From the NCBI RefSeq assembly GCF_024298845.1, contig NZ_CP101156.1, positions 2,356,001 to 2,420,000 on the forward strand: a stretch of 64,000 nt of DNA. The letters are read 5' to 3'. The translations under genes and the position numbers were made by a program. Positions 5,601-30,359 of the stretch are shown here, in pieces. The notes below the pieces were generated by a model. It saw only the letters and a list, made by a program, of their open reading frames with translations, did not search any database and was not told the DNA's origin. Origin of the DNA: Natronosalvus amylolyticus. GTDB lineage: Archaea; Halobacteriota; Halobacteria; Halobacteriales; Natrialbaceae. Position 1 is the first letter of the stretch. Each line of letters opens with the position of its first letter.

Positions 5601-6099
5601 AGATGCGGGCTCGATTCTCGAGACGCTCGATCGGGCCGAGGACGCTTTTTCTGGCTATCCTGCCGGCGAACCCACATACGAAACTGGCCTTAATCCAGAG
5701 GCAAACCAACCACCGGCGATCCAGCTTCGGAAAGCGTGCCGGCTGCTTGAAGCCTGTCGAACGCTCCGTGAACACAACGGCTACCACACGAGCGTGATCG
5801 AGATGTCCTTTGCTGCCATCGAGCGTACCCTCGAGTTCTATGCGTTGTTGGCTTCGAACGACACAGTCAACAATTTCCAAAACCACAAGCGAGCGTACGA
5901 TCGAGCTGCGGCACTCGGTGTTCTCACCGACGAGACGGCACACCGGCTCAAAACGCTGTATCTCGACAATCGGTCTGCAGCGTACTATCGGAGTACAGTT
6001 GCGACAAAAGGGCAAGCAGAGACGATGTTTGCGCTCGCAGTAGCAATGCATGATCACGTAAAGCGGTTCCAGCCAGCAGGCATACGAATGCCAGTGTGA
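5593..6099 (+). CDS. HEPN-family protein, partner of the HTH-MNT protein
   Basis: A 168-residue helical protein from GTG 5593, overlapping the MNT gene by eight bases. The order of helices (AIQLRKACRLLEACRTLREH, then FAAIERTLEFYALLAS, then LYLDNRSAAYYRSTVATK) is that of HEPN proteins paired with HTH-MNT antitoxins. It does not show the canonical R-x4-H-x-Y motif: at the expected place it has NRSAAYYRS with two tyrosines and no His. It is therefore either a non-canonical or inactive HEPN, or uses other residues. The size and pairing support the family call. This ends the second cassette; repeat copy 3 follows after about 130 bases. Confidence 0.65.
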   Translation: MAEDAGSILETLDRAEDAFSGYPAGEPTYETGLNPEANQPPAIQLRKACRLLEACRTLREHNGYHTSVIEMSFAAIERTLEFYALLASNDTVNNFQNHKRAYDRAAALGVLTDETAHRLKTLYLDNRSAAYYRSTVATKGQAETMFALAVAMHDHVKRFQPAGIRMPV

Positions 6100-6230
6100 C
6101 GAGGCACGCTCTCGAACGGATTGAGTGGCTCGCGAGTAACTGGGTGAACCGCTTCGGGGGGTCAAGTCTCCGAGGCACTCGGCCTGCTACGCTGGGGAGG
6201 GTCTAGCTGTGAACAGCAGGATTCTCCCGC

Positions 6231-6534
6231 AGTCATGCGAACGAACGCCCTCGAGTACACCGAACGCCGATTGATCATCCCCGACGATGTGGAAATCCCC
6301 GGCGAGACAGGTCCCTCGAGGACACAGCCCCCGGACACCTGGCGTCCTCGGGTGACCATGGACACCCCCGAATAACCTCTCTCGAGAGAGGATCAACATC
6401 TCACTCGAATACCTGAAACATGCACTCGAGCGGTCTGTTGGTGGGTTGGGTACTGGAGGGTGGCCCGCTCGAGAAGTCTGTGGCAGTCACACGACGAGAT
6501 ACCCAAACCAACAACCGAAGACGACTGCCCACGG
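6231..6534 (+). repeat. Cassette repeat, copy 3
   Basis: Begins near CGAACGAACGCCCTCGAG, continues through the segment encoding RRLIIPDDVEIPGET, and ends at GACGACTGCCCACGG (6520-6534). A small deletion in the ETADVLG region breaks the reading frame at about 6340, so this tail is a pseudogene fragment. The stretch 6100-6230 before it has no recognisable gene. The next MNT start is 78 bases after the repeat end. Confidence 0.85.
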
Positions 6535-6611
6535 AAATCCAAGCAGATCTGGAAATGCCATCCCCACCCGAGACAAACGATTTTAACGATTCCCTGTGTA
6601 CATTCGAGGTA

Positions 6612-7076
6612 ATGGGGTCGACACCGCCTTCAGATCACGGCACGAACACACCTCTCGAGAGTGAGATCGATCTCGAACGTCTCACCCGTGTACTCGAGAG
6701 GTACCCGGTTCGCCTCGCGGTTCTGTTCGGCTCGACAGTTCACGGGACGGCTACTGACCAAAGCGATATCGATATTGCCGTCGCGTTTGAGGCTGATCTC
6801 GGCCCAGATGAACGACTCGAGCAACGCATCTCCCTCACCGTGTCACTCACTGATTCGCTTGGAACCGACGCCATTGATGTTGCTGACCTCGAGGCAATCC
6901 ACCCTGGTGTTGGCCTGGCGGCGCTCGAAAACGGCTACGTGATTATCGAAAATCCCACCCTCCGTGAACGTCTCAAAGAAGACTATGAGAACTCGTATCC
7001 AGAAGCGGAGGAAACCCATGAGGAGCGCATGCGTCGGTTTGATTCGCTGCTGAACCGGTTGGAGGGCCAGGTGTGA
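6612..7076 (+). CDS. Minimal nucleotidyltransferase, MntA-type antitoxin
   Basis: A 154-residue protein from ATG 6612; the frame is open further upstream but that part is repeat sequence, so the ATG outside the repeat is preferred. The MNT motif VLFGSTVHGTATDQSDIDIA (about residues 36-55) gives GS and D-x-D. A second conserved block DAIDVADLEAIHPGVGLAAL follows. It overlaps the next gene by four bases (GTGTGA). It resembles the 2887 gene in length and layout (both have an LE..G.ILYG/VIIE segment after the catalytic core) but is clearly diverged, so it was probably acquired separately rather than duplicated here. Confidence 0.85.
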   Translation: MGSTPPSDHGTNTPLESEIDLERLTRVLERYPVRLAVLFGSTVHGTATDQSDIDIAVAFEADLGPDERLEQRISLTVSLTDSLGTDAIDVADLEAIHPGVGLAALENGYVIIENPTLRERLKEDYENSYPEAEETHEERMRRFDSLLNRLEGQV

Positions 7077-7525
7077 ACGTCTCCTCCCGAGAGGAAATTC
7101 GCATTCTTGAAAAAGCTGCCTACATCGAAGAGGCACTGACGGTGTTGGCCCGAAAACAAGCACTCGATGCAGAGACCTATCAAAATAATCGAGAAGAACG
7201 AGCTATCGTCGAACGCGAATTCCAGACAGCTATTGAGGCGTGTCTCGACATTGCGGGTATCCTCATTGTTGGTGCAGACGCACCAATGCCCGAAACGTAT
7301 GCTGGCCGGTTTACTACCCTCTACGAGCTAGATCTCCTCTCACACGAAACCAGTGAACTGATGCGACAAGCTGCAGGATTTCGGAACGTCCTTGCCCATA
7401 ACTACGGGTCTGATATCGACGATACAGCCGTCTATCGGCACCTGCAAACTGAACTCGAGTGGTTTGTTCGGTACCTCCGGGAAATAAAAGACGTCCTTGA
7501 ACACTCGTCAGCAGAAAATAGCTGA
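7073..7525 (+). CDS. HEPN (DUF86/HepT-type) RNase toxin
   Basis: A 150-residue helical protein from GTG 7073, coupled to the MNT gene by a four-base overlap. The active-site motif is FRNVLAHNYGSDID at about residues 103-116, an intact R-x4-H-x-Y. The preceding helix FQTAIEACLDIAGILIVG and the following HLQTELEWFVRYLREIK are typical of DUF86. As for the first cassette, AMPylation of the motif Tyr by the MNT partner is the expected control, by analogy with characterised MntA/HepT pairs. Just after its stop lies a truncated toxin on the other strand. Confidence 0.85.
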   Translation: MNVSSREEIRILEKAAYIEEALTVLARKQALDAETYQNNREERAIVEREFQTAIEACLDIAGILIVGADAPMPETYAGRFTTLYELDLLSHETSELMRQAAGFRNVLAHNYGSDIDDTAVYRHLQTELEWFVRYLREIKDVLEHSSAENS

Positions 7526-7532
7526 AGTTCCT

Positions 7533-7625
7533 AATGGGATTGCTCACATACCCACGTTCTCGAAGGAGATGCTCGAAAACCCGCCCGACGTGCTCGTCGA
7601 GCAAGAGATGAATACTCTCGGTCAC
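7533..7625 (-). pseudogene. Truncated DUF5615-type PIN-like toxin
   Basis: The 31 codons from 7625 read MTESIHLLLDEHVGRVF then HLLRERGY. This is the start of DUF5615 proteins, PIN-like toxins paired with DUF433, in which the LLDE acid is catalytic. After GYVS the frame runs into the antisense of the HEPN gene, so about 70-80 residues, including the other catalytic acids, are missing. The break lies at about 7525-7535, at the 3' edge of the HEPN gene. Its start overlaps the stop of the DUF433 gene by four bases, which fits the original two-gene operon. Confidence 0.7.
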
Positions 7626-7897
7626 GAGACCGGCTCTTTCGGCTGCAAGCCATCGTCGTGCACGCGCTCAAACGCCTCCGCGTTTTCCCGCTCGAAGCCT
7701 TTCATTTCCTCGATATTGGCATAATAATATGAAAGGGCTTCATAGACGGACGCCAGCGAGATATCGTACTGGTCAGCGACATACGCTGGGGTCTGCCCAC
7801 CACCGACCACTTTCCCGGCGATGTGTCGGACGCCAATCCGGGTTCCCTCGATCCGAGGTTCCCCGCCAAGGATGTCTTCATCGGCGACGATCGTCAT
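7622..7897 (-). CDS. DUF433 (VapB-like) antitoxin
   Basis: A 91-residue protein with the DUF433 hallmark: DILGGEPRIEGTRIGVRHIA (about residues 8-27), then a helix-turn-helix segment VADQYDISLASVYEALSYYY. DUF433 proteins are DNA-binding antitoxins paired with DUF5615 PIN-like toxins. Here the toxin is cut short, so this antitoxin is orphaned on this evidence. It could still repress its own promoter or neutralise a related toxin elsewhere. The gene lies between the third MNT/HEPN pair and repeat copy 4, facing the pair. Confidence 0.8.
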   Translation of the reverse strand: MTIVADEDILGGEPRIEGTRIGVRHIAGKVVGGGQTPAYVADQYDISLASVYEALSYYYANIEEMKGFERENAEAFERVHDDGLQPKEPVS

Positions 7898-7966
7898 AGT
7901 GCTCTAGTCGGGTTGCGTTCGTTTATCTGTTTTTGTGAGAGGCAGAATCGGAGTGGATCCCCATCC

Positions 7967-8313
7967 TCGAGTTCTCGAAGCATCGCCTCGCGGTTCGCAA
8001 ACGCATCGAACGAACGCCCGTGGGTACACCGAACACCGGTTGGTCATCCCGGTAGATGCAGAGATCCCCCGCGAGGCAGAAAACTCGAGTGAGACCACAC
8101 CACCAGAGACAGCTGACATCCTCGAGTGACCCTGGACACCCCGAAATACCCTCCCTCGAGAGAGGACCCATCTCTCACACGAATACCTGAACCACGCACT
8201 CGAGCGGTCTGTTAGTGGGTTGGGTACTGGATAGTGGATCGCTCGAGCAGTCCTCGGCAGTCGTACAACGGGACACCCTCAGACCGGTCACCGAGGACGA
8301 CGGTTGTCTACGG
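7967..8313 (+). repeat. Cassette repeat, copy 4
   Basis: One of the most complete copies. It starts near TCCTCGAGTTCTCGAAGCAT, matching copy 1 at 2455, runs through the segment encoding HRLVIPVDAEIP and PPETADILE with its stop at 8129, and ends at GACGACGGTTGTCTACGG (8296-8313). The frame is open from 7935 to the stop but shifted at its start relative to the parent. The stop codon of the PIN toxin on the other strand lies seven bases beyond the repeat end. No other gene is visible in 7898-8319. Confidence 0.85.
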
Positions 8314-8319
8314 ATATTA

Positions 8320-8709
8320 TCACAACAAATCGGTGGGTGAGAGAGCACCAGCTTCCTGGAGTTCCCCATCAAATGAAACAAGCTCAGCGTCGTGACCTTG
8401 TGCACACGCGAGGATAAGACAGTCAAGTGGATACAGTAAGGTCTCTTGCTGCAAGCGGTTTGCATCCATCATATCAGACGCATCTGGGATGACGATACTG
8501 ACATCTTGAGTAATCTCGTCTTGGATGGACTGGGCAGCAGGGAGTTCGAGCCGATTTTTCTTGGTAAGAACGGTTCGGAGTTCCATGAGATTGAGTGTTG
8601 ATGTTAAAAACTCATGTTCAGTGTTCAAAAGTTCCGCGGCAATCTCACCGCTCTCCGGCTCATCGGTGACAATGGCGACGAAGAGATTGGTATCTAGAAA
8701 AATCCTCAT
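8320..8709 (-). CDS. PIN-domain RNase toxin (VapC type)
   Basis: A 129-residue PIN protein. The acids expected for Mg-dependent RNase activity are visible: D6 in FLDTNLFVA, E43 in LNLMELRTVL, D95 in YPLDCLILACA and D114 in SFDGEL. The length is standard for VapC. It overlaps the small gene upstream by four bases (ATGA), the usual antitoxin-toxin order. VapC toxins cleave specific tRNAs or rRNA; which target applies here cannot be told. This pair is the fourth cassette and the only one entirely on the minus strand. Confidence 0.85.
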   Translation of the reverse strand: MRIFLDTNLFVAIVTDEPESGEIAAELLNTEHEFLTSTLNLMELRTVLTKKNRLELPAAQSIQDEITQDVSIVIPDASDMMDANRLQQETLLYPLDCLILACAQGHDAELVSFDGELQEAGALSPTDLL

Positions 8710-8858
8710 GTCCGCTCGCGAAGACGCCGGACTTCCTCAACGGAGTCAATGTCAAGTTCGTTAGCCAGTCCGCGAAGACGGTCGCCTAATGGTGGGCGAT
8801 CTTCATTGATTTCCTTTGACTGAGTGAACTCAGTGACGTCATCAGCGTAGACTCCCAT
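8706..8858 (-). CDS. Short antitoxin of the PIN toxin (VapB-like)
   Basis: A 50-residue protein from ATG 8858, where an AT-rich TATA-like stretch (TTTTATCTAT) lies about 20-30 bases upstream. Longer in-frame starts run into repeat copy 5 and are rejected. It reads MGVYADDVTEFTQ and ends with a helix DIDSVEEVRRLRER; the C-terminal part fits short haloarchaeal antitoxins that wrap the PIN domain. No clear AbrB or RHH DNA-binding motif is seen, so autoregulation is uncertain. The four-base overlap with the toxin supports the assignment. Confidence 0.65.
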   Translation of the reverse strand: MGVYADDVTEFTQSKEINEDRPPLGDRLRGLANELDIDSVEEVRRLRERT

Positions 8859-8908
8859 GGCAATATACACGAAGTCAATAGATAAAACAGTTCGGCACGT
8901 CCCCTCCT

Positions 8909-9112
8909 CGAACTGTCGGACCATTGCCTTGCGGTTCGCAAGCGCACCGAGCGAAAGAACGGTCTCGAGTACACCGAACGCCGGCAGATTATAAAAAGTC
9001 GAACGGTCTGTTGGTGGGTTGGCTACTGGAGGGTGGGTCACTCGAGCAGTCCTCGGCAGTCGTACAACGGGACACCCTCAGACTGGTCTCCGAAGATGAC
9101 GACTGTTCACGG
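8909..9112 (+). repeat. Cassette repeat, copy 5 (internal deletion)
   Basis: Starts at TCCTCGAACTGTCGGACCAT like copies 1 and 4 and keeps CGCACCGAGCGAAAGAACGG and TACACCGAACGCCGGC. It then jumps, after ATTATAAAAAGTCGAA, straight to CGGTCTGTTGGTGGGTTGG and ends at GACGACTGTTCACGG (9098-9112). About 150 bases in the middle, including the stop region, are missing. It closes the cassette array; the surface-protein gene ends 40 bases further on. Confidence 0.8.
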
Positions 9113-9152
9113 GCTCGATGGTGCCTGCTACCTTTGCTCGAGATGCCAATAT

Positions 9153-10529
9153 TCACTCCGGGATATACGGGTCTAGGTACCCTTGGGAATACACCACGGC
9201 GACGCCTGCGGCCACGGTTGCAACCAGTCCGATCGAAATCAAGAGCCAGGGCGTCCCGCTTTCCTCGTCGATGGTGGATTCCGGATCCGGCGTTTGTTCG
9301 CCGTCATCGGCTTCCGAGCCTTCAGCATCGTCGACTCCAGAGTCGGTGTCGCCTGAATCTGCGTCAGCTCCTGGACCCTCGGCGTCGTCAGACCCCGAGT
9401 CGGTGTCGCCCGAATCATCGTCGGCTCCCGAGTCGGTCCCACTTGAATCGTCGTCAGCCCCCGAATCGGCCTCGTCTGCATCGTCGTCCGAACCGGATTC
9501 CACCTCGGTGACGGTCACCGTACCCACTGACTCGTCGTCCAGCGAGATGGGTACCGTTCCTGGGTGATAAAGCGCGGCGTCGAATACGACCGTCTCGGAA
9601 CTTCCGCCGGCGAGGGAAACGCTCTCGTTGTCCACCTCCTCGCCATCGACGAGCAGTTTCACTTCGTACGAGCCCGTCTCGTCACCAACGTTCGTCACGG
9701 TCCCTGACACCGTGATCTCCTCGCCTACCTCGATCTCGGTCGGCTCGAGCGCGAGTTCGGAGAGTTCGAACGCGGCGGGGTCATCATCGTCCGGCGGCGA
9801 TGGTGGCGCTGGCGGTGCTGGTGGGGGACTCGAGGAGTCGTCGTCACTCGAGGCCGTCGAAAGCGACAGGCGGTGGTCACCGGCCGGGAGAGTGATTACA
9901 AGCGTGCCGTTCGAGCTGGCGTCGACCTCCTCGTCAATGGCGTCCGAATCCAGGCTCTCGATCGAGATCGAATCGCCCTCCTCGAGACCGGTGTCGTGGA
10001 TGGTTAACGTGACGGAGTCGTTTGCCTCGTACGCCAGGTCTGCCACGTCGTCGACCTCGAAGTCAATATCTCCGAATAAGAGTGCCTCGAGCGAGCCGTT
10101 GATCGTCATCCCTGGGGTGTCCGCGGGATCGATCAGGACGTCGTTCGCCGATGCGTTGACTGCCGCGACACAGGTGCGGTCGTTATCACGTTCTTCCAGC
10201 CGGAGTTCGGCCGCACCAGCCGCCACAAATGAGACGTTCGCAATATCCGCGCCCTCGAGCGAGACGGTCTCGTTGTCCGGGAACGTGGGATATGCCTCAT
10301 CGGCACCGGTGGCGTTGTCAGTGACTTCGAGACCGCTATCGGTCACGTACACCGGGCCGCCGCCGGACCCGTCGGCACACTCGAGAGACTGGTCGGCCGC
10401 AAGTGTCGGACCAGCCAGCCCGACCGTCAAAGCGCCGACTGCGAGCAAGCAGACGAGCAGGGCCACGAAGAGCCGCCTCGATCGGCTCGCGTTCGCCAAT
10501 TCTCGGTCACGTATCGAGTTCGATGCCAC
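9153..10529 (-). CDS. Secreted/anchored CARDB-domain protein with Asp-rich stalk (module 1)
   Basis: A 458-residue protein from GTG 10529. Residues 1-45 are a signal region (RRLFVALLVCLLAVGAL then AGPTLAAD). Residues 48-230 form a beta-rich domain with two Cys (SLECADGSGGGPVYVTDSGL and DRTCVAAVNAS). A Pro-rich hinge follows (PPPAPPAPPSPP). Residues 255-345 are a CARDB-like adhesion fold (VGEEITVSGTVTNVGDETG). Residues 350-425 are an Asp/Ser/Gly stalk, and a C-terminal TM (LLISIGLVATVAAGVAVVY) anchors it. The start overlaps the stop of the beta-repeat gene upstream, so the two form one operon. A paralogous pair lies at 19257-22056. Surface display is well supported; the partner or ligand is unknown. 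Confidence 0.75.
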   Translation of the reverse strand: MASNSIRDRELANASRSRRLFVALLVCLLAVGALTVGLAGPTLAADQSLECADGSGGGPVYVTDSGLEVTDNATGADEAYPTFPDNETVSLEGADIANVSFVAAGAAELRLEERDNDRTCVAAVNASANDVLIDPADTPGMTINGSLEALLFGDIDFEVDDVADLAYEANDSVTLTIHDTGLEEGDSISIESLDSDAIDEEVDASSNGTLVITLPAGDHRLSLSTASSDDDSSSPPPAPPAPPSPPDDDDPAAFELSELALEPTEIEVGEEITVSGTVTNVGDETGSYEVKLLVDGEEVDNESVSLAGGSSETVVFDAALYHPGTVPISLDDESVGTVTVTEVESGSDDDADEADSGADDDSSGTDSGADDDSGDTDSGSDDAEGPGADADSGDTDSGVDDAEGSEADDGEQTPDPESTIDEESGTPWLLISIGLVATVAAGVAVVYSQGYLDPYIPE

Positions 10530-10530
10530 G

Positions 10531-11946
10531 TCATGGCCCCCCGTTCGAGAATTCGGTTTTGGTCGTCCGTATCGTCGCTACCCATCGAGTGTCTCGACTG
10601 TTATCGACGCCCGACGTGATCGAAACCTCGAGAGAATCGTTGCTATCGTCGAAGCCAATATCGACGCTTCCCAGCTCCTCGTCTTCAAATTCGCTGACGA
10701 TTCTGGTATGGATCGTCGACATCGTTCCGTCGTTCGTCACGGATCCATCGATGTGCCAGGACGCCCCCTCGTGGAAGAGCGTTCGTCCAAGGATCTGTGC
10801 GGTGAACGCTATCGAGCAGTCGACAGGTACCTCGATTCGTTCTTCCTCGCCGTCGAGGAACAACTCAACCTGCTGGTTACTGGCCGAGGTCTCGTTCCGG
10901 AGGACGTACGTCGATGCTTGTGCATCGCCAGCCGTTTCGAAACTGCCACTCGCGTAGGCGAACTGGCCGTGCATATCGGCTTTGGCCTCATCCCCACCGG
11001 GAATGGTTGCGAACCTCGAGTTTACCTCATTCCGATGGCCGCCACCGATCGTTCCGTACATGGGGATACCAGGCATGTTCGACGTCATCGTTGCATTGTC
11101 GGCGCCACCCGATATCGTCGAAAACGGCTGGGAAGCGTTGTTCTGAACACCGCCGCCAACCGTCGACCAGAGCTCATCCGCCACGTTTTCCTGACCGCCG
11201 CCAACTGTCGCGTGATGATTGTTGGTCGCATTATTTTCCCCGCCACCAATCGACGCGTAGTCGGTTCCAGCCGCGTTATCCGCCCCACCGGCGACCGTCG
11301 CAAACTCTCCCTCCGCGGTGTTGTCACCACCCCCGGAGATTGTCGCGGAATTTCCGTGGACTTTGTTCGTCAACCCGCCGCCGACCGTCCCGTAGATGCC
11401 CGTAACCTCGTTGCCATCGTCGCTGCCGAAGTCACCGCCACCGCCAGATATCGTCGCCCCGCTGACGTCCCCGACGCTGTTGTTCGGGTGGCCAGCGACG
11501 ATATTTCCGGCCTCGCTCGGATCGTCGGCGTCCTGGACGGCGAGTTCGAACACGTTCGAATCGGTTTCGGAGACACCCGTAATCGACGTTGTATACAGCT
11601 CATCGAGCGGCCGGTCTTCGGTCCCGAGTTGTCCCTGTGACTCCACCTGACTCGCCGAGGCCGATGTCACACCTAGACCAACCAGGCCGGCAAGGCCGAT
11701 CCCAGTCAGCGCCGAACGGCGACTGACAGACGGGCCTCCCGCTGGTTTATCACAGACCTCGTCGGGAGTATCCCCATCGAGTTGTTCGAGTTTCGCCCGC
11801 TGTGCCTCGAGTCGGTCTGCTTGCCGTTCGATCGTCTCCCGTTGGCTCTCGAGTACTGACTCGAGAGTGTCGATCCGGTCTTCGAGAGACGGGTCGTCTG
11901 TTTCCATTGAACGCTGCCTCGGCTCTGAGTGGCGTCGATCAGTCAT
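10531..11946 (-). CDS. Coiled-coil, Tat signal and YadA-head-like beta-repeat protein (module 1)
   Basis: A 471-residue protein (an ATG at 11907 is an alternative start). Residues 20-62 are a coiled coil (LESVLESQRETIERQADRL). A twin-arginine segment SRRSALTGIGLAGLVGLG lies at about 75-95, followed by ASASQ, so the coil sits ahead of the signal. GTEDRPLDELYT follows. Residues 160-330 carry about nine imperfect 14-15 residue repeats of the form ATVGGGxxNxA, the pattern of left-handed beta-roll heads of trimeric autotransporters such as YadA. A C-terminal beta domain (350-471) may be a cap. Export by Tat is typical of haloarchaea. No membrane anchor is seen after the signal; it may depend on its operon partner. 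Confidence 0.65.
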   Translation of the reverse strand: MTDRRHSEPRQRSMETDDPSLEDRIDTLESVLESQRETIERQADRLEAQRAKLEQLDGDTPDEVCDKPAGGPSVSRRSALTGIGLAGLVGLGVTSASASQVESQGQLGTEDRPLDELYTTSITGVSETDSNVFELAVQDADDPSEAGNIVAGHPNNSVGDVSGATISGGGGDFGSDDGNEVTGIYGTVGGGLTNKVHGNSATISGGGDNTAEGEFATVAGGADNAAGTDYASIGGGENNATNNHHATVGGGQENVADELWSTVGGGVQNNASQPFSTISGGADNATMTSNMPGIPMYGTIGGGHRNEVNSRFATIPGGDEAKADMHGQFAYASGSFETAGDAQASTYVLRNETSASNQQVELFLDGEEERIEVPVDCSIAFTAQILGRTLFHEGASWHIDGSVTNDGTMSTIHTRIVSEFEDEELGSVDIGFDDSNDSLEVSITSGVDNSRDTRWVATIRTTKTEFSNGGP

Positions 11947-13806: not shown

Positions 13807-15018
13807 TCAAAGAATCGACTCGAGAACCTCACGCAACCTGTCAGTGTCAACCTCGAGGTCGCTGTGTCGAAATTCGCCGCCTGCTTGGGCGTGGGGGAGA
13901 CAGGAGACGTACTCGTAGTCGATATCCAGCAGGTTCGCCAGGACGTAGTGGTGAATGTTTTCCTCGGCGTCGAGAACCATCTCGAGGAGTGTCGGATCCT
14001 CGCCAAAGATAACGTTCGAGAGGCCAGCACCATAGGGGCCGACAACCATCTCCGCATTTGAAAAGAGACGAACCTGGTCGCTAAATGATAGCCGGCCGGG
14101 TTCGTAGACTTCGAACGCATACTCCTCGAGGACCTCGAGTACCTCACGTCGGTTGTGGAGACGTCGCCGTGGAGCATCGGCCCGTGAAATGAAGATTCGG
14201 TCGCCAAACGAGCCCGATCCAGGTGATACATTTTGTCGCATACGATTGCGAACCCACTGGAGATCACGCATGGACGGGTACGTAGGTATCTGACTCCAGG
14301 TCAGAAAACGGTGTGATGGGACCAACAACTGCTGGACGTGAACCGGATCGCTCCCCGTCTGCTGGAGAGACTCAAGTGGATACCCCAGCAGCGACAGGGA
14401 CTCTCGCTGCCAGCTACTCAACTCCCCTCTGATGATGAGTGTCGGCTCTTCACCCGTTTCTCTCATGTAGGCTTCGTAGGCCCAGAGCTTCGGGAGGACT
14501 TCGAACGTCCAGTGGCCGAATCCGGTGAAAAAACCCGTGAGCAAGAACCCCGAGTCGACCGTTGACGTGGGCCTGGTTCGAGCATACGATCCCAAGATTG
14601 CATCGGTAAGTGAGACGTTAGCGGCGAACGTCTCGCGTTCTTTCCACCCGTCCTGACGTGCTTTTGCCGTCCCGATCGCCGATGGCGAGATGTATCGCCC
14701 ATCGAGATTGATGATCGGCTCGGATCCAATCAGCACCGCATCCTGAAACTCACAAACATCCCGTGGGGTGGCGATTGCCTGGCCATCGACGGCTGGTATG
14801 AAAGCAGGGTGTGGGGGGTCGTGCAAGCCATCGTATCGGAACTGTGATTTAGCACCCTCTTCAACGCGGATGACATCTGACGCACGAGAATACACCGCAT
14901 CGTCCTCCTCAACCAGAAGGCGCCGGCGAAAGGGCTCCTTCGCGCCCGCGAGGCCCAACCCCAGTACCCCATCCTTGCGATACTTATACCGCGCCCGCTC
15001 GAGGAAATCTGGAGCCAT
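13807..15018 (-). CDS. Glycosyltransferase family 61-like protein
   Basis: A 403-residue protein from ATG 15018, ten codons after the stop of the neighbouring sulfatase gene would allow. The central region FLLTGFFTGFGHWTFEVLPK (about 165-185) and the C-terminal block SFSDQVRLFSNAEMVVGPYG followed by AGLSNVIF are typical of GT61/DUF563 transferases. There the GAGL..NVIF segment binds the nucleotide sugar. It is cytoplasmic, with no signal. It overlaps functionally with the sulfatase-fold gene just upstream (two-base gap) and the epimerase beyond, so it probably adds a sugar to a surface glycan or an S-layer glycan. The acceptor is unknown. Confidence 0.75.
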   Translation of the reverse strand: MAPDFLERARYKYRKDGVLGLGLAGAKEPFRRRLLVEEDDAVYSRASDVIRVEEGAKSQFRYDGLHDPPHPAFIPAVDGQAIATPRDVCEFQDAVLIGSEPIINLDGRYISPSAIGTAKARQDGWKERETFAANVSLTDAILGSYARTRPTSTVDSGFLLTGFFTGFGHWTFEVLPKLWAYEAYMRETGEEPTLIIRGELSSWQRESLSLLGYPLESLQQTGSDPVHVQQLLVPSHRFLTWSQIPTYPSMRDLQWVRNRMRQNVSPGSGSFGDRIFISRADAPRRRLHNRREVLEVLEEYAFEVYEPGRLSFSDQVRLFSNAEMVVGPYGAGLSNVIFGEDPTLLEMVLDAEENIHHYVLANLLDIDYEYVSCLPHAQAGGEFRHSDLEVDTDRLREVLESIL

Positions 15019-15019
15019 G

Positions 15020-16432
15020 TTACAGATACCCCATCTGTGCAAGCTGTCGTTTTCGTTCCCCATTGACTACCTGTTCTGCCTGTGGTTCGCACTCGAGCGC
15101 CATCCGTTTGCTCGCGAGGATATCTGATTCGAAAAGCGTGGTATCTTCGATTGGAAACCCCTCCAACTCATCGGCCGTCGTTCGCTTTACTCGAGTCTCG
15201 GTGTCGAGATCGAGGTCGAATACTGCCGTCCTGCCGAGGCTGTCCCAGCGGATCTTCCGTTGATCGGTATACGCACACCTGATCAGTCGATCCCAGTAGG
15301 CACCGCCTGCGTCCTCGCCCGTATGGCCGATCACTTCGCCAGTAATCGGCTCGTCGCCGAAGGAGTACCTCTCACCGTGAGCGAGGCGTACGAGTAACTC
15401 CCCGAGTTCGAGGTGGCTGACCAGTTTCGACTCCGTATACGGATACCCATCGGGCGGATTGATGAGAACGAGCGGGACATGAAGAATTGCCTCACTGAGA
15501 CTCGAGTGGTGCTCGAAACGCTCCTCATCGGCCGCCGACCCGAGGTTTTCGCCGTGATCTGCGGTGATGACAATCGTAGTCGGATGTTCGGTTCGCCGCT
15601 GGATTTCGTCGATCCATGCATCCACCTGCCGATCGAGGTACTCGATCGATGCCGAGTACAGTTGTTCGTAATTTCGGACGTACTCGTGATGCTGTCCCGG
15701 ATTACGGTTGACCTCTTTGGCTGATGGCCCACCTTTCGACGTCCACGAGTTTGGAACCGAGTGGAGTTCGCGGTTCAATCCCCGATGATGGTACATTGGA
15801 ACGTGCGCATCCATCAGATTGAGAAACGCGAACACCGGACGGTCGGTGCACTCTGTAGTGAGAATTCTGGATGTCGCTTCCGAGAGAGCCTTTTTTGTGC
15901 CCTTATCCTGGATTTCGGGCCATGGCCAGCCGGAAAACAAGAGGTCGTACGGATTCACTTTCGCTAGCACACCGTTGGTGAGGCTGCGGATTGGATGAGC
16001 GTCCTGCAGCGCCCGTCTGACATACTCGAGGTGGCCAACGTCCCAGAGGTCAGGATCTCTCGGGGAGAGAGCGTGATCGAACTGAAGAGCACCTGCGTGG
16101 GGTACCTGCGAAAACTCTTCGAAGAAGGAATCGAACCCATAGTACCGACTGGCATATGCGTTCGTACTGACGCCGATTCGAGCGTGATCGGGCAAGTCCT
16201 CGAGAAACGTCTCCGTCAGGTCAATACGCGTAAAGTCTCGAGCGTGAGTGTGAACGCCGTGGACGTGCGGGAGTTCGCCAGTGAACATACTCGCGTGGCT
16301 CGGTACGCTCCATCCGCTGGCGGCGCGACACTGGTGGTACACTACCTCAGCCCGTTCAGTCAGTCGAGGCGCAAACTCGTCGAAATAATCCTTGCGAACA
16401 GTATCGAGACAGAGCAAAACGACGTTTCTCAC
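15020..16432 (-). CDS. Sulfatase/alkaline-phosphatase-superfamily protein
   Basis: A 470-residue protein with the superfamily start VVLLCLDTVRKDYFDEFAPR, a core SGWSVPSHASMFTGELPHVH at about 39-58 and ITADHGENLG at about 282-291; the DT and ADHGEN residues are metal ligands. The formylglycine motif C/S-x-P-x-R is altered to S-V-P-S-H: Ser is present but the Arg is His. This fits the haloarchaeal 'sulfatase' group whose substrate is unsettled and may be a phospho-group transferase. No signal peptide, so it acts in the cytoplasm. It lies in a minus-strand glycan operon between the epimerase and GT61 genes. Confidence 0.75.
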   Translation of the reverse strand: MRNVVLLCLDTVRKDYFDEFAPRLTERAEVVYHQCRAASGWSVPSHASMFTGELPHVHGVHTHARDFTRIDLTETFLEDLPDHARIGVSTNAYASRYYGFDSFFEEFSQVPHAGALQFDHALSPRDPDLWDVGHLEYVRRALQDAHPIRSLTNGVLAKVNPYDLLFSGWPWPEIQDKGTKKALSEATSRILTTECTDRPVFAFLNLMDAHVPMYHHRGLNRELHSVPNSWTSKGGPSAKEVNRNPGQHHEYVRNYEQLYSASIEYLDRQVDAWIDEIQRRTEHPTTIVITADHGENLGSAADEERFEHHSSLSEAILHVPLVLINPPDGYPYTESKLVSHLELGELLVRLAHGERYSFGDEPITGEVIGHTGEDAGGAYWDRLIRCAYTDQRKIRWDSLGRTAVFDLDLDTETRVKRTTADELEGFPIEDTTLFESDILASKRMALECEPQAEQVVNGERKRQLAQMGYL

Positions 16433-16586
16433 GGGAGTGCCTCCAGCAGAGTTCGTTCTCTGATAGCATTCGGTGAGTGTCCGAATGTGGGCTCCTTGTG
16501 AGCGACTGTTCGGACGCTTGCTCGATTTCGTTCCTCACTGCGTGTCCATCCCCGTAAATTCTGAGACCGTACCACACTCAGATCTC

Positions 16587-17590
16587 TCATATCAGCTGGT
16601 TTTTCCACGTTTCGGGCGTCTCGTCGGTGACGATCTCGAGGTCAAGGTGGTACTCAAACTCTCTAGTTCCCTGTTCGTCGATCCAGTCGACCATCTCGAC
16701 GAGTCCATCTCGGAGAGTGTACTGTGGACGGTACCCGAGCAACTCACGCGCCTTATCAGCTGAACAGTTCGCGAGTTTCACTTCCTGAGGCCGATCACGA
16801 ACGTAGACAGGATCCAGGTCGAAATCGATTATGTCGGCAATCGTCTCCGCCAGGGAGTTGATTGACACGAACTCATCGTCGGGGCCGACGTTGATCGTCT
16901 CGCCACAAACGTCTTCCCGGAAAGCGAGTTTCGCGAGCGGGCGAACGACATCGGCCACATACGAAAAACACCGCTTTTGCTCGCCATCGCCGTAGATGAT
17001 TGGCTGTTGTCCCTGGAGCATCCGGTTGATAAAAATAGATGCAACGTTCCGGAAGGGGTCATCGTAGCGCTGTCGGGGCCCGATGATGTTGTGAGGAACA
17101 ACGACCACATACTCGAACCCGTGACACTCAGCCATAACCCTCGTCAGTTCCTCGGCGGCAACCTTGCTGGCCGCGTAGGGATCTTGCGGTCTCGGCTCCA
17201 TCTCCTCTCTAAACGGAAGTTCGTTCTCGCCATAGCGCGACATACTCGAGCAGTAGACGAACCGGTCAACGCCCTCGGCTGCCGTCGCAGCGAGCGTTGC
17301 AGATGTTGCCTGGTAAATACTCTCGGTGATGGCTGCAGGAGCGAACACGCTTGCGCCCTCATACGAGAGCCCTGCTGTGTGGTATACGACATCGGACCCC
17401 CAATCGCCGTTTTCATTGCCTCGACGTCAGTGCAGTCTACGCGATGAAACGCTGCCCCCTCAGGGACGTTCTCCATGTAGCCCCCCACTAGGGTGTCATT
17501 GCCCGCCACCTCGTGGCCTCGCTCGAGGAACCATTCGGCAAGATGGCTTCCAAGAAACCCCCCAATGCCAGTAATAAATATTCTGGCCAT
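16587..17590 (-). pseudogene. NAD-dependent sugar epimerase/dehydratase, frameshifted
   Basis: Two overlapping frames make one extended SDR protein. The first (from ATG 17590) has FITGIGGFLGSHLAEWF, a G-x-x-G-x-x-G NAD fold, up to VEAMKTAIGG. The second continues SDVVYHTAGLSYEGASVFAP, then YAASKVAAEEL (the YxxxK catalytic pair), and ends near 16587. The break is at a run of five C's (17397-17401): one base is missing relative to an uninterrupted frame. A homopolymer error in the assembly or a young pseudogene are both possible. Intact relatives make nucleotide sugars for surface glycans, which fits the operon. Confidence 0.75.
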
Positions 17591-19256: not shown

Positions 19257-20528
19257 CTAGAGTCGCTCTCGGAGCACGTAACCGATCCCGCCGAGAGCGC
19301 CGATTGCCACGACGAAGCCGACGATCGTGCCGAAGCCGACCCCTGATGGATCGTCGTCTTCCGTCTCACCCTCTATCTCAGTACTATCGCCGTCTCCGGC
19401 GTCGCTGGAGTCGTCATCGCTAGATTCGCCCCCTCCGACATCTGCCGTGTCGTCGCTTGTCGTATCAGCGTCATCGTCGTCGCTCGTCTCAGCCCCCTCA
19501 TCGTCGTCGCTCGTCTCGGCCCCGTCATCGTCTTCCGGTGGCTCCACAGCGACGACGGAGACGGTGGTGACCGTTTCGATGCCGACATCGAACTCGCCCT
19601 CGGCGTCGAATGCGTGGACGAACTCGAGGGTCGTCTCCTCACCGCCTTCGAGCGTCACGTTCGTTTCATCGACTACCGAACCGTCGACGAGCAATTCGAT
19701 CGTCTCCGTCCCGGCTTCGTCGCCGACATTTTCGATGCTCACGATCACCGATAACGGTTCGCCGACCTCGAGTTTCGTCGGATCGACCGATTCGTTGTGG
19801 ATCTCGAACGCGGCCGGTTCGGCGGGGTCGGGCGGCGATGGCGCTGGCATCGGCGGTGGTGGGGGTGAGGAGCCGCCGTCGTCGTCGACTTCTACTGACG
19901 CGGATAGGGCGACCTCACCAGCGGGGATTTCGAAGGTGACTGCGCCGTCACCGTCAACCTCGGCTTCGAGAGTTGCGTCACCGTCAGTCACCACCGTATC
20001 GCCCTCTTCGAGCCCGGTGTCGTGGATCGTGAGCATGAAGGACTCGCTGGCGTTCGAGACGACATCCATTTGCCCGTCCTCAAGGTCGCCGTCACCGATG
20101 GCCAGTCCATTGACCGTGCCGTTGACGGTCACGACGGTGCCGTTTTCAGGCGTGATCGTGACGGGGTGGGTGCTCGCGTTGATGGCCGCGAAACAGGTTC
20201 GCCCCGGTTTATGATCTTCGAGTCGAAGCTGTGCCTCGCCGGCGGCACTGAACGAGACGTTAGTGTCGTTGATCCCACGAAGTTCGACAGTCTCGTTATC
20301 GGGAAACACGGGATAGCCCTCGTCGGCGGCGGTAGCGTTGTCCTCGAGCTCGAGGCCGCTGTCGGTGACGTAGACTGGGCCGCCACCGTCGCCAGCGGTG
20401 CACTCGATGTCGACGAGATTCGAATCGGCCGTTACCGTTCCCGGAACGGCGACGACGAGCCCAAGAACGATCACGACGGCGAGGAACACCGCCGCCGGTC
20501 GAGTTCCGCTGAACCGCCGATCACTCAT
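19257..20528 (-). CDS. Secreted/anchored CARDB-domain protein with Asp-rich stalk (module 2)
   Basis: A 423-residue paralogue of the 9153-10529 product. From ATG 20528 it has a signal (TRPAAVFLAVVIVLGLVVAV) and the same N-domain (GGPVYVTDSGLELEDNATAA; a Cys pair). It then has a Pro-rich hinge (SPPPPPMPAPSPPDP), a CARDB-like domain (VGEPLSVIVSIENVGDEAG), an Asp/Ser/Thr-rich stalk and a C-terminal TM (GTIVGFVVAIGALGGIGYVL). ATG 20528 overlaps the stop of the upstream gene (ATGAGTGA), as in module 1, so the two-gene unit is conserved. The last residues (VLRERL) are basic, giving an inside-positive anchor. Choosing ATG 20528 over an upstream frame is based on the overlap and the signal. Confidence 0.75.
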   Translation of the reverse strand: MSDRRFSGTRPAAVFLAVVIVLGLVVAVPGTVTADSNLVDIECTAGDGGGPVYVTDSGLELEDNATAADEGYPVFPDNETVELRGINDTNVSFSAAGEAQLRLEDHKPGRTCFAAINASTHPVTITPENGTVVTVNGTVNGLAIGDGDLEDGQMDVVSNASESFMLTIHDTGLEEGDTVVTDGDATLEAEVDGDGAVTFEIPAGEVALSASVEVDDDGGSSPPPPPMPAPSPPDPAEPAAFEIHNESVDPTKLEVGEPLSVIVSIENVGDEAGTETIELLVDGSVVDETNVTLEGGEETTLEFVHAFDAEGEFDVGIETVTTVSVVAVEPPEDDDGAETSDDDEGAETSDDDDADTTSDDTADVGGGESSDDDSSDAGDGDSTEIEGETEDDDPSGVGFGTIVGFVVAIGALGGIGYVLRERL

Positions 20529-22056
20529 GGGAATCGGATGTTGGTACCGCGGCCGACGAAGCCTGCTCGTCGTCAGTTCCATCAGTGACAGTTACGTCAC
20601 CGTCTCCGCTGTCAGAAGTCATTACTGTCGTCTCTTCACCACTCGGTAGGTCGAACGTCACGAACTGGAATCCGGATTGGACGGTGTCCCCGTCATCGTC
20701 TAGCAATTCAACGACGAGATCACTAGAGTTACTCGTGGTTCGGGGGTTGACGTTCGTCAACGGCGTGACCACCGTCACGTACTGGTCGTAAAAGTAGTTC
20801 TCGTGCTCGATACTGATTCGGTAGCGCTCCTCAGTGCTATTCCATTCGGCACTGCTAACGTTGACGGCGTTTTCGACCGTCCCATCGGAGTTGATCCACC
20901 CCTTTGCGATCGGGCCGGCGGTTCGTTGTGGCGTCTCGTCTGCAAAGGCGAGCGTCCCACCGAGAACGGTATCGCCGGTGGTCTCGTGATCGCCATCGGT
21001 TTTGCTGTCACCCTGAGAGTACACCCCGTGGCCGGCTCCCGACATGTCCATCCCGCGAACACCCCACCCTTCCGGTGAGTGGTTTCGACCCAGGACTCCG
21101 TACGCCGTGCCGCTATCGGCTGTTGCTAGCCCGAAGACGCCTCCGGCGTCCGACACGCCCTCGTCTTCACCGCTCCGATCCGTAATGCCAGAGACACCGA
21201 TGCCCGAACTGATGAACGAATCGTGATCGTAGTCGTCGGAGACGACCATCCCGGTTACGCCCCGCCCGGTTTTGGATTCCGTGATCCCCCGCACTCCATG
21301 GGTGGTATTCTCACCGGTGGCTCTCCCTTCTACGCCAGCAGGAACGATCTCAGGAGTCCCTGTATTGTCTGCGTCCGCATCAGTTCTCCCTTCGACACCC
21401 TTGGTTTCTGCTGTGACGGTATCTGCGGTCGCGTGACCCTTGACACCGGTCGCCCCGTCAGTGTCCCCAGCTGTTGTCCCGCCGACCCCTATTGCCGAGC
21501 CACTGTCGGCGGTCGCCGTTCCTCTGACCCCGTACGCGTCTTGACTTTCGGAGTCCGTGATGCCCGAAATCCCGTACGTTTCACCGAGCGCCGCCGTCGA
21601 CCGCCCTTCGATTGCGGTCGTGCCGTCGGCGTCGATGTCGGTTTCTGAGGTGATCTCGGTGGCCTCGAGATCGATCGTGTACAACGCATTGAGTGGGCGA
21701 TCCTCGGTACCGACCTGTCCGTGAGGCTGTGGCTGTGCGCTCACAGATCCGGCACCGAGTCCGAGCAACGCGAGCGCGCCACCGGCCTGTAACGCACGTC
21801 GGCGGGTTACTGGTACCGAACTCCCACCACTGGACGTCCCCGTCGTCGACCGCTCAGCGAGTTCCTCGAGCCGGGAGTTCTGGCGTTCGATAGTCGCTTG
21901 TTGATCTGCGACGAGCGCTTCGAGCCGCTCGAGTCTGTCATCGATTGCTGCATCCGGTTGTGAGGGAGTGGGTTCCATAGTTTGGTTGTGAGTACGTTCG
22001 ATGTCTGCGCTGGCCGATGGATCGGTTCCTGCAGGGTTTTCCTCACTCATCCGCAC
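20521..22056 (-). CDS. Coiled-coil, Tat signal and Gly-x-Gly beta-repeat protein (module 2)
   Basis: A 511-residue paralogue of the 10531-11946 product, with the same plan. It has a coiled coil (RLERLEALVADQQATIERQN, about 42-61), a twin-arginine segment (TRRRALQAGGALALLGLGAG) and the shared motif GTEDRPLNALYT. A long repeat domain follows (about 140-370) with units of the type YGVxGxxxxxxG: AYGVRGTATAD, THGVRGITESKTGRGVTG, GWGVRGMDMSGAGHGVYS. The repeats differ from the ATVGGG type of module 1, so the head has been exchanged while coil, signal and C-terminal domain are kept. ATG 22050 is an alternative start. It is probably a surface fibre or adhesin head, by inference. Confidence 0.65.
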   Translation of the reverse strand: MRMSEENPAGTDPSASADIERTHNQTMEPTPSQPDAAIDDRLERLEALVADQQATIERQNSRLEELAERSTTGTSSGGSSVPVTRRRALQAGGALALLGLGAGSVSAQPQPHGQVGTEDRPLNALYTIDLEATEITSETDIDADGTTAIEGRSTAALGETYGISGITDSESQDAYGVRGTATADSGSAIGVGGTTAGDTDGATGVKGHATADTVTAETKGVEGRTDADADNTGTPEIVPAGVEGRATGENTTHGVRGITESKTGRGVTGMVVSDDYDHDSFISSGIGVSGITDRSGEDEGVSDAGGVFGLATADSGTAYGVLGRNHSPEGWGVRGMDMSGAGHGVYSQGDSKTDGDHETTGDTVLGGTLAFADETPQRTAGPIAKGWINSDGTVENAVNVSSAEWNSTEERYRISIEHENYFYDQYVTVVTPLTNVNPRTTSNSSDLVVELLDDDGDTVQSGFQFVTFDLPSGEETTVMTSDSGDGDVTVTDGTDDEQASSAAVPTSDSHE

Positions 22057-22797: not shown

Positions 22798-24180
22798 CCT
22801 GCCTACTCTGCCGCTTACACGGCTTCCTTGAGGCAGGAGCTTCCTGTTTCAACGACACGACTTGCAGACACAGAACGAGCGTCCACAGCGTCCACGAGAA
22901 CTCCGTTCTCGTGTGGCCCATCAGAACCTTCGGTTCTGAGGACGGTCGCAGTCTTCACAGGCGTACCTTTGGAGTGAACCACTCCTAGTTTCTCCAGACC
23001 ACGCGATTTCACGTTCAATGCGGCGTTCCAATCTCTATCCAACTCGAACCCACACGATGGGCACGAGTGTTCGCGAACCCACAGCGGCTTCGCAGTCTCT
23101 ACCCCACAACACGCACACTCTTTCGTCGTGCCGCGAGCAGTCACTTCCACGTAGTGTGTGCCGTGCTTGTCACAGTGGTGTTCAAGAATCGAACGGAAAT
23201 CGCTCCATCCGACCTCGGATTTGTTCCGAGCGTTCCCCTCGGATTCGAGCATCGACTTCACGTCGAGGTTCTCAACGAACACAGCGTCGTACGCTGTCGC
23301 GTAAAAGTGCGCGAGCTTGTGCTTGTAATCGCGCTTTTTGTTCGACATCCGAGCGTGAACCTCGGCCACTCGACGGCGCTGTTTCTCCCAGTTGTTCGAC
23401 TCATATTGCTTGCGAGAGAGCGAGCGTTGCTCGCGTTCGAGTCGCTCTCGCTCATCTGATAAGTCGAGTCGCCCAATGGAAAGCCCATCAGAATCGTGAA
23501 CGAAGTTGAGCACACCGAGGTCGAGACCAACCGTGTCCTCTGCATCGATGGCTTCTGGGTCTGGTTTCTCTGGTTCATCGGTGCTGATGCAGAACGAGGC
23601 ATACCACGCTCCTGTCGGCTCTTTCTTCACCGTGACCTCTTTGATAGCGTCGTGCTCTGGCAGGTTTCGGTGGAGTCGGATTGGAATTTCGAGGGTTTCA
23701 CCGCGAACCTTTTTGAGTCGCAGAATTGCTCGGTCTCTCGGGCCACTCTTCGTGTCGAGTTCGAAGCCCGATTGCCGATACGTGAAACTCCGGTACTCAC
23801 GCGGTTTCTTCCAGTTCAACGAGCCAACGCTGTATCCCTTGGCTTTCAGTTTGCCGAGGTTGTTGATGTTGGTTCGGATGCGTTCGACGGCTTTCTGTAA
23901 CACGGTGGAGTAGACTTGTTTCAGGTCGCTCCACTGTTGTTTGAGTCTGGGGAGGTCGTCTCGGACTTGCCAGACGCGCTGTCGAAGCGTGCCGTCGTCT
24001 TCTGGTAGCTTGTTGAATTCGTGGAGTGCGTGGTTGTACACTTGTCGCACGGTGTTACGAGTCCAGTCGAGTCTCTCCCGCTGTTCGCTCGCCGGGAAGA
24101 GTCGGTATTTTGGACTGTACACCATGTGACTCTTCTCCTGCTAGTGGTTGTGGTTAGTTAAGCGCTTTGATTAGATTCGT
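22798..24180 (-). mobile_element. IS200/IS605-type element with tnpB only (IS1341 type)
   Basis: The unit contains the tnpB at 22815-24125 with end sequences. The right end (left side here, 22800-22850) has the self-complementary CCTGCC ... GGCAGG around the tnpB stop. The left end lies in the AT-rich stretch after 24125. No tnpA is present, so movement would need one in trans, for example the tnpA at 35868. It truncates the DUF234 ATPase fragment. Exact ends are approximate. Confidence 0.6.
22815..24125 (-). CDS. tnpB: TnpB-type RNA-guided nuclease
   Basis: A 436-residue TnpB. RuvC-like motif I is TVGLDLGVLNFVH (Asp at about 203). The motif II Glu is in AVFVENLDVKSM, and the motif III Asp in FELDRDWNAALN. 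A zinc finger (CACCG ... CPSCG) lies between motifs II and III. All three catalytic acids are present, so it may be active. TnpB proteins are guided by an omega RNA made from the element's 3' end and cut double-stranded DNA next to a short TAM. The N-terminus (VYSPKYRLFPASEQRERLDW) is complete. Codon use is similar to its surroundings. The role in element retention is known for the family; activity here is inferred. Confidence 0.85.
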   Translation of the reverse strand: MVYSPKYRLFPASEQRERLDWTRNTVRQVYNHALHEFNKLPEDDGTLRQRVWQVRDDLPRLKQQWSDLKQVYSTVLQKAVERIRTNINNLGKLKAKGYSVGSLNWKKPREYRSFTYRQSGFELDTKSGPRDRAILRLKKVRGETLEIPIRLHRNLPEHDAIKEVTVKKEPTGAWYASFCISTDEPEKPDPEAIDAEDTVGLDLGVLNFVHDSDGLSIGRLDLSDERERLEREQRSLSRKQYESNNWEKQRRRVAEVHARMSNKKRDYKHKLAHFYATAYDAVFVENLDVKSMLESEGNARNKSEVGWSDFRSILEHHCDKHGTHYVEVTARGTTKECACCGVETAKPLWVREHSCPSCGFELDRDWNAALNVKSRGLEKLGVVHSKGTPVKTATVLRTEGSDGPHENGVLVDAVDARSVSASRVVETGSSCLKEAV

Positions 24181-24360
24181 TTGATATGTGTGCGGGCGCT
24201 GTATCCCCGCCTTACTCACTCACTGCACGTTGGTTCGTTCGCTCCTTGAGAACGGGGGCTTAGCGCCCTCTCTTTCAGCTAAATGCAGATTCTAGCACCT
24301 CGAGTTCCGCTTCTCGGTTGACGAAACGAGTGTGAGCCATAGTCTGTGTATGTGAACCAC

Positions 24361-25830
24361 TGAGTTGACATCCTCCCCGCCCTGAAGGGCGAGGATTCCC
24401 GAGCGTTGGGATATTAAGGTTTGCAACCCACCTGTTCGCTCGGTGCGAAATGCCCCGAGGTTTGATTGAACAGGTAGGCTACTGGCCGTGCCAAACGACC
24501 GTTACTCATATCCCTCGTAGGGGGATTCTGAGTTATCTTTCTGCGAATGTTCACCGCACCATTCACATCCGCGTTCATCGTCACACCACACGACTCGCAA
24601 ACGTACAACCCACGCTCCACGCGATTCGCGTCACGCTTCCGGCCACAGCACGAACACGTCTTCGACGTGTCGCGCTCGCTCGTGCGGTCTACGAGGATGC
24701 CGTTTTCTTCGGCCTTGTATTCGAGCAAGCGGGTGAAGCGGTCGAACTCCCAACCGTGGAGTTTCTTGTTCCCACGTTTACCCCAGTTCCGTGAGTCGCC
24801 GTTCTCGTCTTCACGAATCTTGCTCAAGTCGCCTATGGCGATGCGACCGACCGCGTGGTTGATGCACTGCCTAACGATATGCTTGGCGAGGGCGTGCAGG
24901 AAGTGGCCTTTCCGACGCGAGAGTTTCTGTCGGGCGCGGAGCGCACGGCGTGACGGGCCGTTCTCGCCTTCGGTGTCGTACTCGTCGCGGGTGAAGTAGT
25001 GTTTGTCCTGTTTCAACACGTTCCCCGGATACAACTCCGCATCACCGTCGTCGTAGGCGATGGCGAGGTAGTTCTTGATACCGAGGTCGATTCCTGCGGT
25101 GTTGTCACCGGGTGCGTCTTCGACGGGAATTTCGACCTTGCAGACGAGGTGGAGTTTCCAGCGGTCGCCGTTCCATACGGCGCGTACTTGTTGGATGTTC
25201 TCCACGGTTACATCCGGTCGTGTCTCGTATTCGGCGAGGATGAAGTCTGAGCGGTGCTGTTTGAGGTTGAAGCCTTTGGATAGGCGGAGTTGATTGTGTT
25301 TGGAATCGTGCTTGATACCCATCTGTTTCCACGTGACGGTGGAGCGTGGGTGGTTGTCGCCTCGCTTTCGGTAGCCGGGTGGATTTGCATCTGTGTCGCC
25401 GTTCTTGCGCTTTTTGAACCAGCCGTTGAACGACTCAGCAAGCTCTTCTAGAACTCGCTGACTTGACTGAGAATGTAGGTCACTGTATCGTTCGTGGTCT
25501 TTTAATTCGCGCTTGAGGTCGGCTTCGGATGGTATCTCGCCGGTTTCATCCCACTCTTGTTGGGTGTGATAGCGGGCAACGTTCCACAGTTTCGAGGCTG
25601 AGTGCCCGCACTGGTCGAGGTCGTCACTCACTTGGGAGTGGTTGACGATTCTCGCTCGATAGGTGCGGGTTGTCTCCAGCATCAGACTGTGTTCATAATC
25701 ATTTATGGAATGTTCCGTATTAAAGATGGTGGTTGAGCGTGGAATATCCAGCCGTGCAGCCATCGGTGGAGGGTGTCATCCAGTGACGGCGCGTATCCCC
25801 GCCGTAAACGGCGAGGTTTTGCGCCTGCTC
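24361..25830 (-). mobile_element. Second IS200/IS605-type element with tnpB only
   Basis: Right end at 24361-24413: TGACATCCTCCCCGCCCTGA with AGGGCGAGG forms the typical hairpin, followed by the end of tnpB at 24414. The left part reaches beyond 25763 into CCCCGCCGTAAACGGCGAGG (25793-25812), a second hairpin that may be another end. The 24126-24360 gap between the two elements holds GTTCGCTCCTTGAGAACGGG and GCTTAGCGCCC, a palindromic motif that recurs at about 51.3 kb. Exact borders are approximate. Confidence 0.6.
24414..25682 (-). CDS. tnpB: TnpB-type protein of a second subfamily
   Basis: A 422-residue TnpB-like protein from ATG 25682 (the frame runs upstream to 25763). RuvC motif I is AGIDLGIKNYLAIAY. 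Motif II reads RIAIGDLSKIRED, where the usual acid before D-L is Gly, so the catalytic Glu may be shifted or replaced by the Asp. Motif III is NADVNGAVNIRRK. Zinc-binding Cys pairs are CSCCG and CESCG. The subfamily differs from the 22815 protein (no shared N-terminus), so the two tandem elements are independent arrivals, not a duplication. Cleavage activity is less certain here. Confidence 0.8.
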   Translation of the reverse strand: MLETTRTYRARIVNHSQVSDDLDQCGHSASKLWNVARYHTQQEWDETGEIPSEADLKRELKDHERYSDLHSQSSQRVLEELAESFNGWFKKRKNGDTDANPPGYRKRGDNHPRSTVTWKQMGIKHDSKHNQLRLSKGFNLKQHRSDFILAEYETRPDVTVENIQQVRAVWNGDRWKLHLVCKVEIPVEDAPGDNTAGIDLGIKNYLAIAYDDGDAELYPGNVLKQDKHYFTRDEYDTEGENGPSRRALRARQKLSRRKGHFLHALAKHIVRQCINHAVGRIAIGDLSKIREDENGDSRNWGKRGNKKLHGWEFDRFTRLLEYKAEENGILVDRTSERDTSKTCSCCGRKRDANRVERGLYVCESCGVTMNADVNGAVNIRRKITQNPPTRDMSNGRLARPVAYLFNQTSGHFAPSEQVGCKP

Positions 25831-27119: not shown

Positions 27120-27124
27120 CTCAA

Positions 27125-30357: not shown

Positions 30358-30359
30358 TT

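Follow-up and report, generated by a model that had tools for sequence, protein, structure and literature searches.

YadA-type heads are known in the trimeric autotransporter adhesins (TAAs) of Gram-negative bacteria, proteins with an outer-membrane barrel. Capping domains of the Peptidase_S74 and C1q/BclA types are also known from trimeric proteins. PMC7688925 describes TAAs as secreted unfolded, and gives Tat signals as predicted in 48% of its Brucella TAAs, where it considers a role for Tat unlikely, so that the prediction of a Tat signal for a protein resembling TAAs is nothing new in itself. Export of a pre-assembled oligomer is treated in PMC10924467 for the Tat 'hitchhiker' heterodimers.

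Here we describe a gene of the haloarchaeon Natronosalvus amylolyticus that lies in a window (the whole stretch of DNA analysed) of 64,000 nucleotides, positions 2,356,001 to 2,420,000 of contig NZ_CP101156.1. Its product, a 471-aa fibre of the UspA1/YadA type with a signal of the Tat type, a probable trimerisation handle in the cytoplasm and a membrane partner encoded next door, is an unusual form of a known kind. It shares with the type Vc adhesins (YadA, UspA1) head repeats homologous to those of UspA1 and a construction from coil and head modules, but it differs from them in that a barrel was not found, in that the coil stands before and not after the head, and in its Tat-type signal. Peptidase_S74 tail-fibre-like proteins are a second point of comparison, as S74 is common to five relatives of the fibre and a haloarchaeal plasmid encodes a distant relative whose annotation reads 'tail fiber domain-containing protein'; unlike these tail fibres, the 471-aa fibre has another cap, and its family combines a Tat-type signal with a membrane partner. 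With the hitchhiker heterodimers the fibre would share export as a pre-assembled oligomer, whereas in the fibre each chain carries its own signal and the putative assembly element lies before that signal. Among the matches listed in searches of the open-access PMC literature, no title concerned an archaeal fibre of this kind or a coiled coil preceding a Tat signal.

The anatomy of the 471-aa fibre, the translation of its coil, its conservation and its gene pairing are established from the sequence. The features are as follows.

10531..11946, minus strand: fibre gene, 471 aa, with coil, Tat-type signal, UspA1/YadA-like head and C-terminal cap
11776..11889, minus strand: coiled coil, residues 20-57, from heptads and model
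11860..11877, minus strand: RIDTLE, an RhxxhE trimerisation motif, residues 24-29 (motif as defined in PMC3653964)
11653..11724, minus strand: twin-arginine signal, residues 75-98, ending in ASA, with invariant RR and conserved small -3/-1 residues in relatives
10957..11457, minus strand: head repeats, residues 164-330, about 10 units, from pattern count, UspA1 homology and head model
10534..10935, minus strand: C-terminal domain (GDAQASTYVLR...), about 130 residues, common to L074 and L075
9153..10529, minus strand: partner gene, 458 aa, with signal, partner domain, CARDB and C-terminal hydrophobic segment (ends by eye)
9906..10382, minus strand: partner domain, from profile A4
9543..9752, minus strand: CARDB of the 458-aa partner, Pfam PF07705, E=4e-7
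20521..22056, minus strand: second fibre gene, 511 aa, with the same coil type (RLERLE) and Tat start and a GVxG-repeat passenger
19257..20528, minus strand: second partner gene, whose chosen start overlaps the end of the second fibre gene by 8 nt; CARDB E=1.2e-6

The window thus carries two fibre-partner pairs. The listed GTG start of the 458-aa partner lies 1 nt past the fibre stop, and the second fibre had no PDB match at E<=1. Between the pairs, at 13807-17348, are genes that by eye resemble glycosyltransferases, sulfatases and epimerases and are possibly surface glycan genes. Two transposase-like genes (TnpB-type by eye) adjoin the second pair at 22815-25763, and a gene block at 25941-35961 resembles, also by eye, a type IV secretion or conjugation module.

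The pattern [ATSVY][TSAM][VI][GSAP]GGxx[NEDQA] matches the fibre repeats eight times, with five successive spacings of 15, and two degenerate units recognised by eye (near residues 184 and 298) bring the total to about ten. A chance origin of the repeats is rejected by 2000 shuffles of residues 161-335, which averaged 0.013 matches and never gave more than 1. The UspA1 head 3pr7 was found in the PDB by phmmer with the 471-aa fibre at E=1.9e-14, and the match reached E=5.5e-39 with the seven-row profile A3. Neither UspA1_rep nor a YadA anchor was matched by Pfam in the 471-aa fibre at E<=10; the relative L031 has a UspA1_rep match above cutoff. An earlier note on this DNA had read about nine ATVGGGxxNxA units, a head of the YadA/trimeric-autotransporter type and no beta-barrel anchor, and these results agree with it on each point. 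It had named a predicted fold unlike a beta roll as speaking against its view. A monomer model of the head (residues 143-340, from three sequences) reached pLDDT 72.9 and pTM 0.70 and is a beta-solenoid. VIA-align placed the TAA head 3s6l first (Z 12.6, rmsd 9.1), and gave Z 12.0 and rmsd 3.0 with 3p4g, a right-handed solenoid; low-rmsd alignment was to right-handed solenoids and not to left-handed rolls. In its handedness this shallow single-chain model is thus at odds with the homology to UspA1 seen in sequence, and we place no reliance on it. The same three-row model had no Foldseek match at E<=0.001. A single-sequence model of the whole fibre was poor except in the coil (mean pLDDT 46.6), and a fold search with it gave a meaningless result.

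Searches of Pfam, PHROG, phage and PDB sequences with the C-terminal domain of the 471-aa fibre found nothing significant, and by sequence it has no known relatives beyond L074 and L075, which share it; the cap searches also gave no support to an occurrence of the GDAQ/YVLR cap among phage tail fibres. Thirteen family members were scanned with Pfam, L033 as a C-terminal fragment. Peptidase_S74 is above cutoff in 5 of the 13 and absent from the 471-aa fibre, and in L081 the matches to BclA_C and C1q fall below the cutoff.

The distribution of the fibre was followed with an N-terminal profile, A1, run on 391 haloarchaeal genomes. At E<=1e-3 it matched 237 of them, most of the matches listed spanning the Tat part only. 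The family, defined as ORFs in the fetched loci matching A1 at E<1e-8, comprises 23 ORFs in 16 of the 391 genomes; L042|9232 (E=5.1e-8), which has a Tat signal and by eye no coil, was left out. By reading, the passengers have GGG-type head repeats in 16 members and GVxG repeats in four. Those of L085 and L086 resemble one GGG-type member and are not counted among the 16, and that of L079 falls outside both groups (1/23). A first scan of genome contigs for relatives found none and a second found one locus, in Salinarchaeum laminariae. Eight GGG-repeat haloarchaeal ORFs outside the family were inspected: L039 and L041 have a Tat-type signal and no coil, and the other six have neither, the start being doubtful for L034 and L037. 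At L033 (9277-13304) the fibre gene is split by two genes that by eye resemble an IS200/IS605 transposase pair.

In the coil of the 471-aa fibre, heptad positions a are I25, L32, I39, L46 and L53, and positions d are L28, Q35, Q42, Q49 and L56. The single-sequence model has a helix at residues 21-57, with block pLDDT values of 86, 90 and 87 over residues 21-50. Residues 24-29, RIDTLE, fit the RhxxhE pattern R(g)-h(a)-x-x-h(d)-E(e) in the heptad coil. The motif is strict in 20 of the 23 family members (L084-L086 being near copies that count as one), has a K variant in two and is absent from one, L032|7340, the second fibre of the L032 tandem; among the 22 members that bear a motif, 14 have Gln at the second position d. 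R24 is the sole invariant column of a seven-row alignment outside the signal and the GQxGT block. The coils of L082-L086 are short, about two heptads. Four of 12 coil-like 35-mers from outside the family also carry the motif (our own count, leaving out L036, a GGG-repeat protein without it), so that its enrichment in the family is moderate (Fisher p=0.002, relatedness ignored).

A long n-region can reflect a wrong start, as in one case told in PMC10924467. As the cause of the long n-region of the fibre, a wrong start is excluded. There is no ATG, GTG or TTG between codons 14 and 93 of the ORF, and codon 93 lies within the hydrophobic stretch. The coil is moreover conserved with dN below dS (0.09 against 0.23) and, at 85% amino acid identity to the nearest relative, L074, is the best conserved part of the fibre; the repeats are 48% identical. 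Among 19 relatives with the strict motif, the window included, 14 have no start codon between motif and RR, and five (L033, L080, L082, L084 and L085) have one or two. The coil at residues 20-57 precedes RR76-77, as the earlier note had claimed, and translation does not begin after the coil; evidence for a start there was what it had named as speaking against its view.

The fibre gene has a recurrent neighbour, which codes for a membrane protein with an ectodomain; the earlier note had picked up neither this pairing nor the second pair in the window. The partner domain, which is N-terminal, is present in 30 of the 391 genomes, all 16 fibre-family genomes among them (hypergeometric 1.4e-20 for co-occurrence of fibre start and partner domain, relatedness ignored). 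Of the places with a strong partner match (E<1e-37), 20 in all, 19 lie no more than 3.6 kb from a fibre on the same strand; the exception is in G249, where fibre and partner are apart. Conversely, a partner is encoded on the same strand and at most 7 kb away for 22 of 23 fibres, and in 16 of 23 the partner domain starts at most 700 nt downstream of the fibre stop. The exceptions are a 2 kb interval in L080, a transposon in L033 and tandem fibres in L032 and L077; the partner is upstream of the fibre in L082 and L031|7584, and there is none at L079. Among 148 genomes of the phylum, two matched the partner domain among the matches listed, both already known, and its best PDB match is titin (E=0.0095).

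Two variants of the partner were seen. In L031 a dockerin-like tail replaces, by reading, the C-terminal hydrophobic segment; in the same locus (5887-9932) a GLUG-motif protein, GLUG being assigned by Pfam, and the partner by eye share such a tail. L084 has the partner domain in fusion with a kinase (HATPase_c E=4.3e-13, HisKA_7TM E=3.4e-12; a PAS match is sub-threshold). The fusion gene, at 7494-10331 of that locus, lies directly downstream of the fibre gene and is followed by a similar-looking membrane protein, and L085 and L086 are alike. Their partners equal that of L084 in length, and all three belong to genus g63. As L082 and L083, also of g63, have shorter partners, the kinase-type partners of this one genus probably reflect a single fusion event.

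On this evidence we give a probability of about one half to the following reading: the gene encodes a surface fibre of haloarchaea that is probably homotrimeric, with UspA1/YadA-type heads and Tat export; the coil is a cytoplasmic trimerisation handle that is cleaved off, and the partner serves to anchor or to read the fibre. The trimer, the dependence on Tat, the cleavage and the binding of the partner are what we infer here from sequence. Three chains would join in the cytoplasm through the N-terminal coil, with its RhxxhE motif and Gln at d, the C-terminal cap assisting, and the head would fold into a trimer before export. Tat would then carry the folded trimer, with three signals, across the membrane, and signal peptidase would cleave at AxA, so that coil and signal (about 98 residues) would be lost. 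Outside, the partner, with its partner domain, CARDB and C-terminal hydrophobic segment, would hold or read the fibre, the reader in one genus being a 7TM histidine kinase bearing the partner domain. Passage of a pre-folded trimer through Tat, the solution offered by the earlier note, remains a sensible one for this presumed trimer and presumed Tat substrate. Against this reading we count the GGG-repeat proteins outside the family that have no coil (L039 and L041 with a Tat-type signal, six others with neither), the motif-less L032|7340, the short coils of L082-L086, the cap without known relatives, the low-rmsd alignment of the head model to right-handed solenoids, the separation of fibre and partner in G249 and the n-region lengths of other Tat-like genes, described below.

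A more specific version is put forward tentatively. The coil, ahead of a cleavable Tat signal, may be a disposable handle that bundles three signal peptides, brings the passenger to fold as a trimer while still cytoplasmic, presents the homotrimer with its three signals to the Tat receptor and is lost on export; the freed fibre and its partner would form a two-protein surface system, in which the partner would mostly be an anchor and, in one genus, a sensor kinase. As speculation, three signals on one trimer might suit Tat receptors that contain three copies of TatC, a kind considered in PMC13186574.

The preferred reading depends on a Tat signal that is removed. A Sec-type N-terminal signal is absent, since the twin-arginine signal comes after 75 residues with no later start before it. 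RR76-77, the hydrophobic stretch and ASA98 fit the Tat-substrate motif pattern, and the assignment follows from this motif and its conservation in relatives; Pfam TAT_signal gave no match in the 471-aa fibre at E<=10. Other Tat-like genes provided a spoiled control: at least 40 residues precede RR in 12 of 42, most of them by eye miscalled starts or membrane proteins, and this crude count of n-region length showed no clean contrast with the fibre family. After the hydrophobic stretch, A, V or T stands at -3 and A or G at -1 in 22 of 22 displayed members (our own reading), which favours removal of the coil, and the coil is probably cut off on export. Those small residues argue against a rival in which the segment stays uncleaved and anchors the fibre in the membrane, the coil forming a trimeric root in the cytoplasm and the head lying outside; so does the neighbour gene, which encodes a protein with a C-terminal hydrophobic segment. 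Such a root would account for a long coil conserved N-terminal to the hydrophobic stretch, and by eye the 471-aa fibre has no C-terminal anchor; we regard it as unlikely.

It is also unlikely, and slightly more so, that the coil is a targeting or timing element, bound by a chaperone, by part of the Tat machinery or by some other cytoplasmic protein, while the passenger assembles without it. The Tat-type head proteins without a coil are consistent with this, and so are several Tat proteins beside distant partners, sampled here as 14 loci with weaker partner matches (L118-L131; G378, also weak, was left out). Nine of the 14 have nearby a same-strand Tat protein with, as called, at least 32 residues before RR; three of these (L121, L124 and L128) carry RhxxhE by reading, and in several Tat proteins beside distant partners a different helix at the N-terminus (QIREIV, for example) was read instead. 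The occurrence of the trimer motif in 20 of the 23 members of the family and the second-d Gln in 14 of 22 speak against a targeting role and fit the cytoplasmic trimerisation proposed above. Short Tat proteins with N-terminal helices are frequent beside the distant partners, and the genome G294 has five equal-scoring partner places.

That the pair is a viral spike module, domesticated or shared, is improbable. By eye, most of the 14 loci with a distant partner resemble proviruses, with small membrane proteins and large acidic low-complexity proteins, and a Tat protein beside the distant partner of L121 hits a profile of virion structural proteins (E=3.6e-8); the distant partners of L126 and L131, however, sit by eye among ordinary chromosomal genes. 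The L118 distant partner matches a protein of the lemon-shaped Haloferax virus LSV-48N (WWZ16970.1) at E=1e-43, but over query residues 182-574, a region C-terminal to the partner domain and essentially outside it, the domain itself being unmatched; the pair in the window carries no viral evidence. A phage origin of the 471-aa fibre found no support: it had no match among phage records, and profile A3 and the cap profile found no relative in viral contigs.

The surface fibre favoured here places a YadA-type head in cells without an outer membrane, with a different export signal and a candidate anchor. If the model of the coil as a handle is true, it would offer a simple genetic test of Tat carrying a homotrimer with three signals, as well as a removable tag for the export of folded trimers. 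The kinase-fused partner domain would tie a surface fibre to archaeal signalling.
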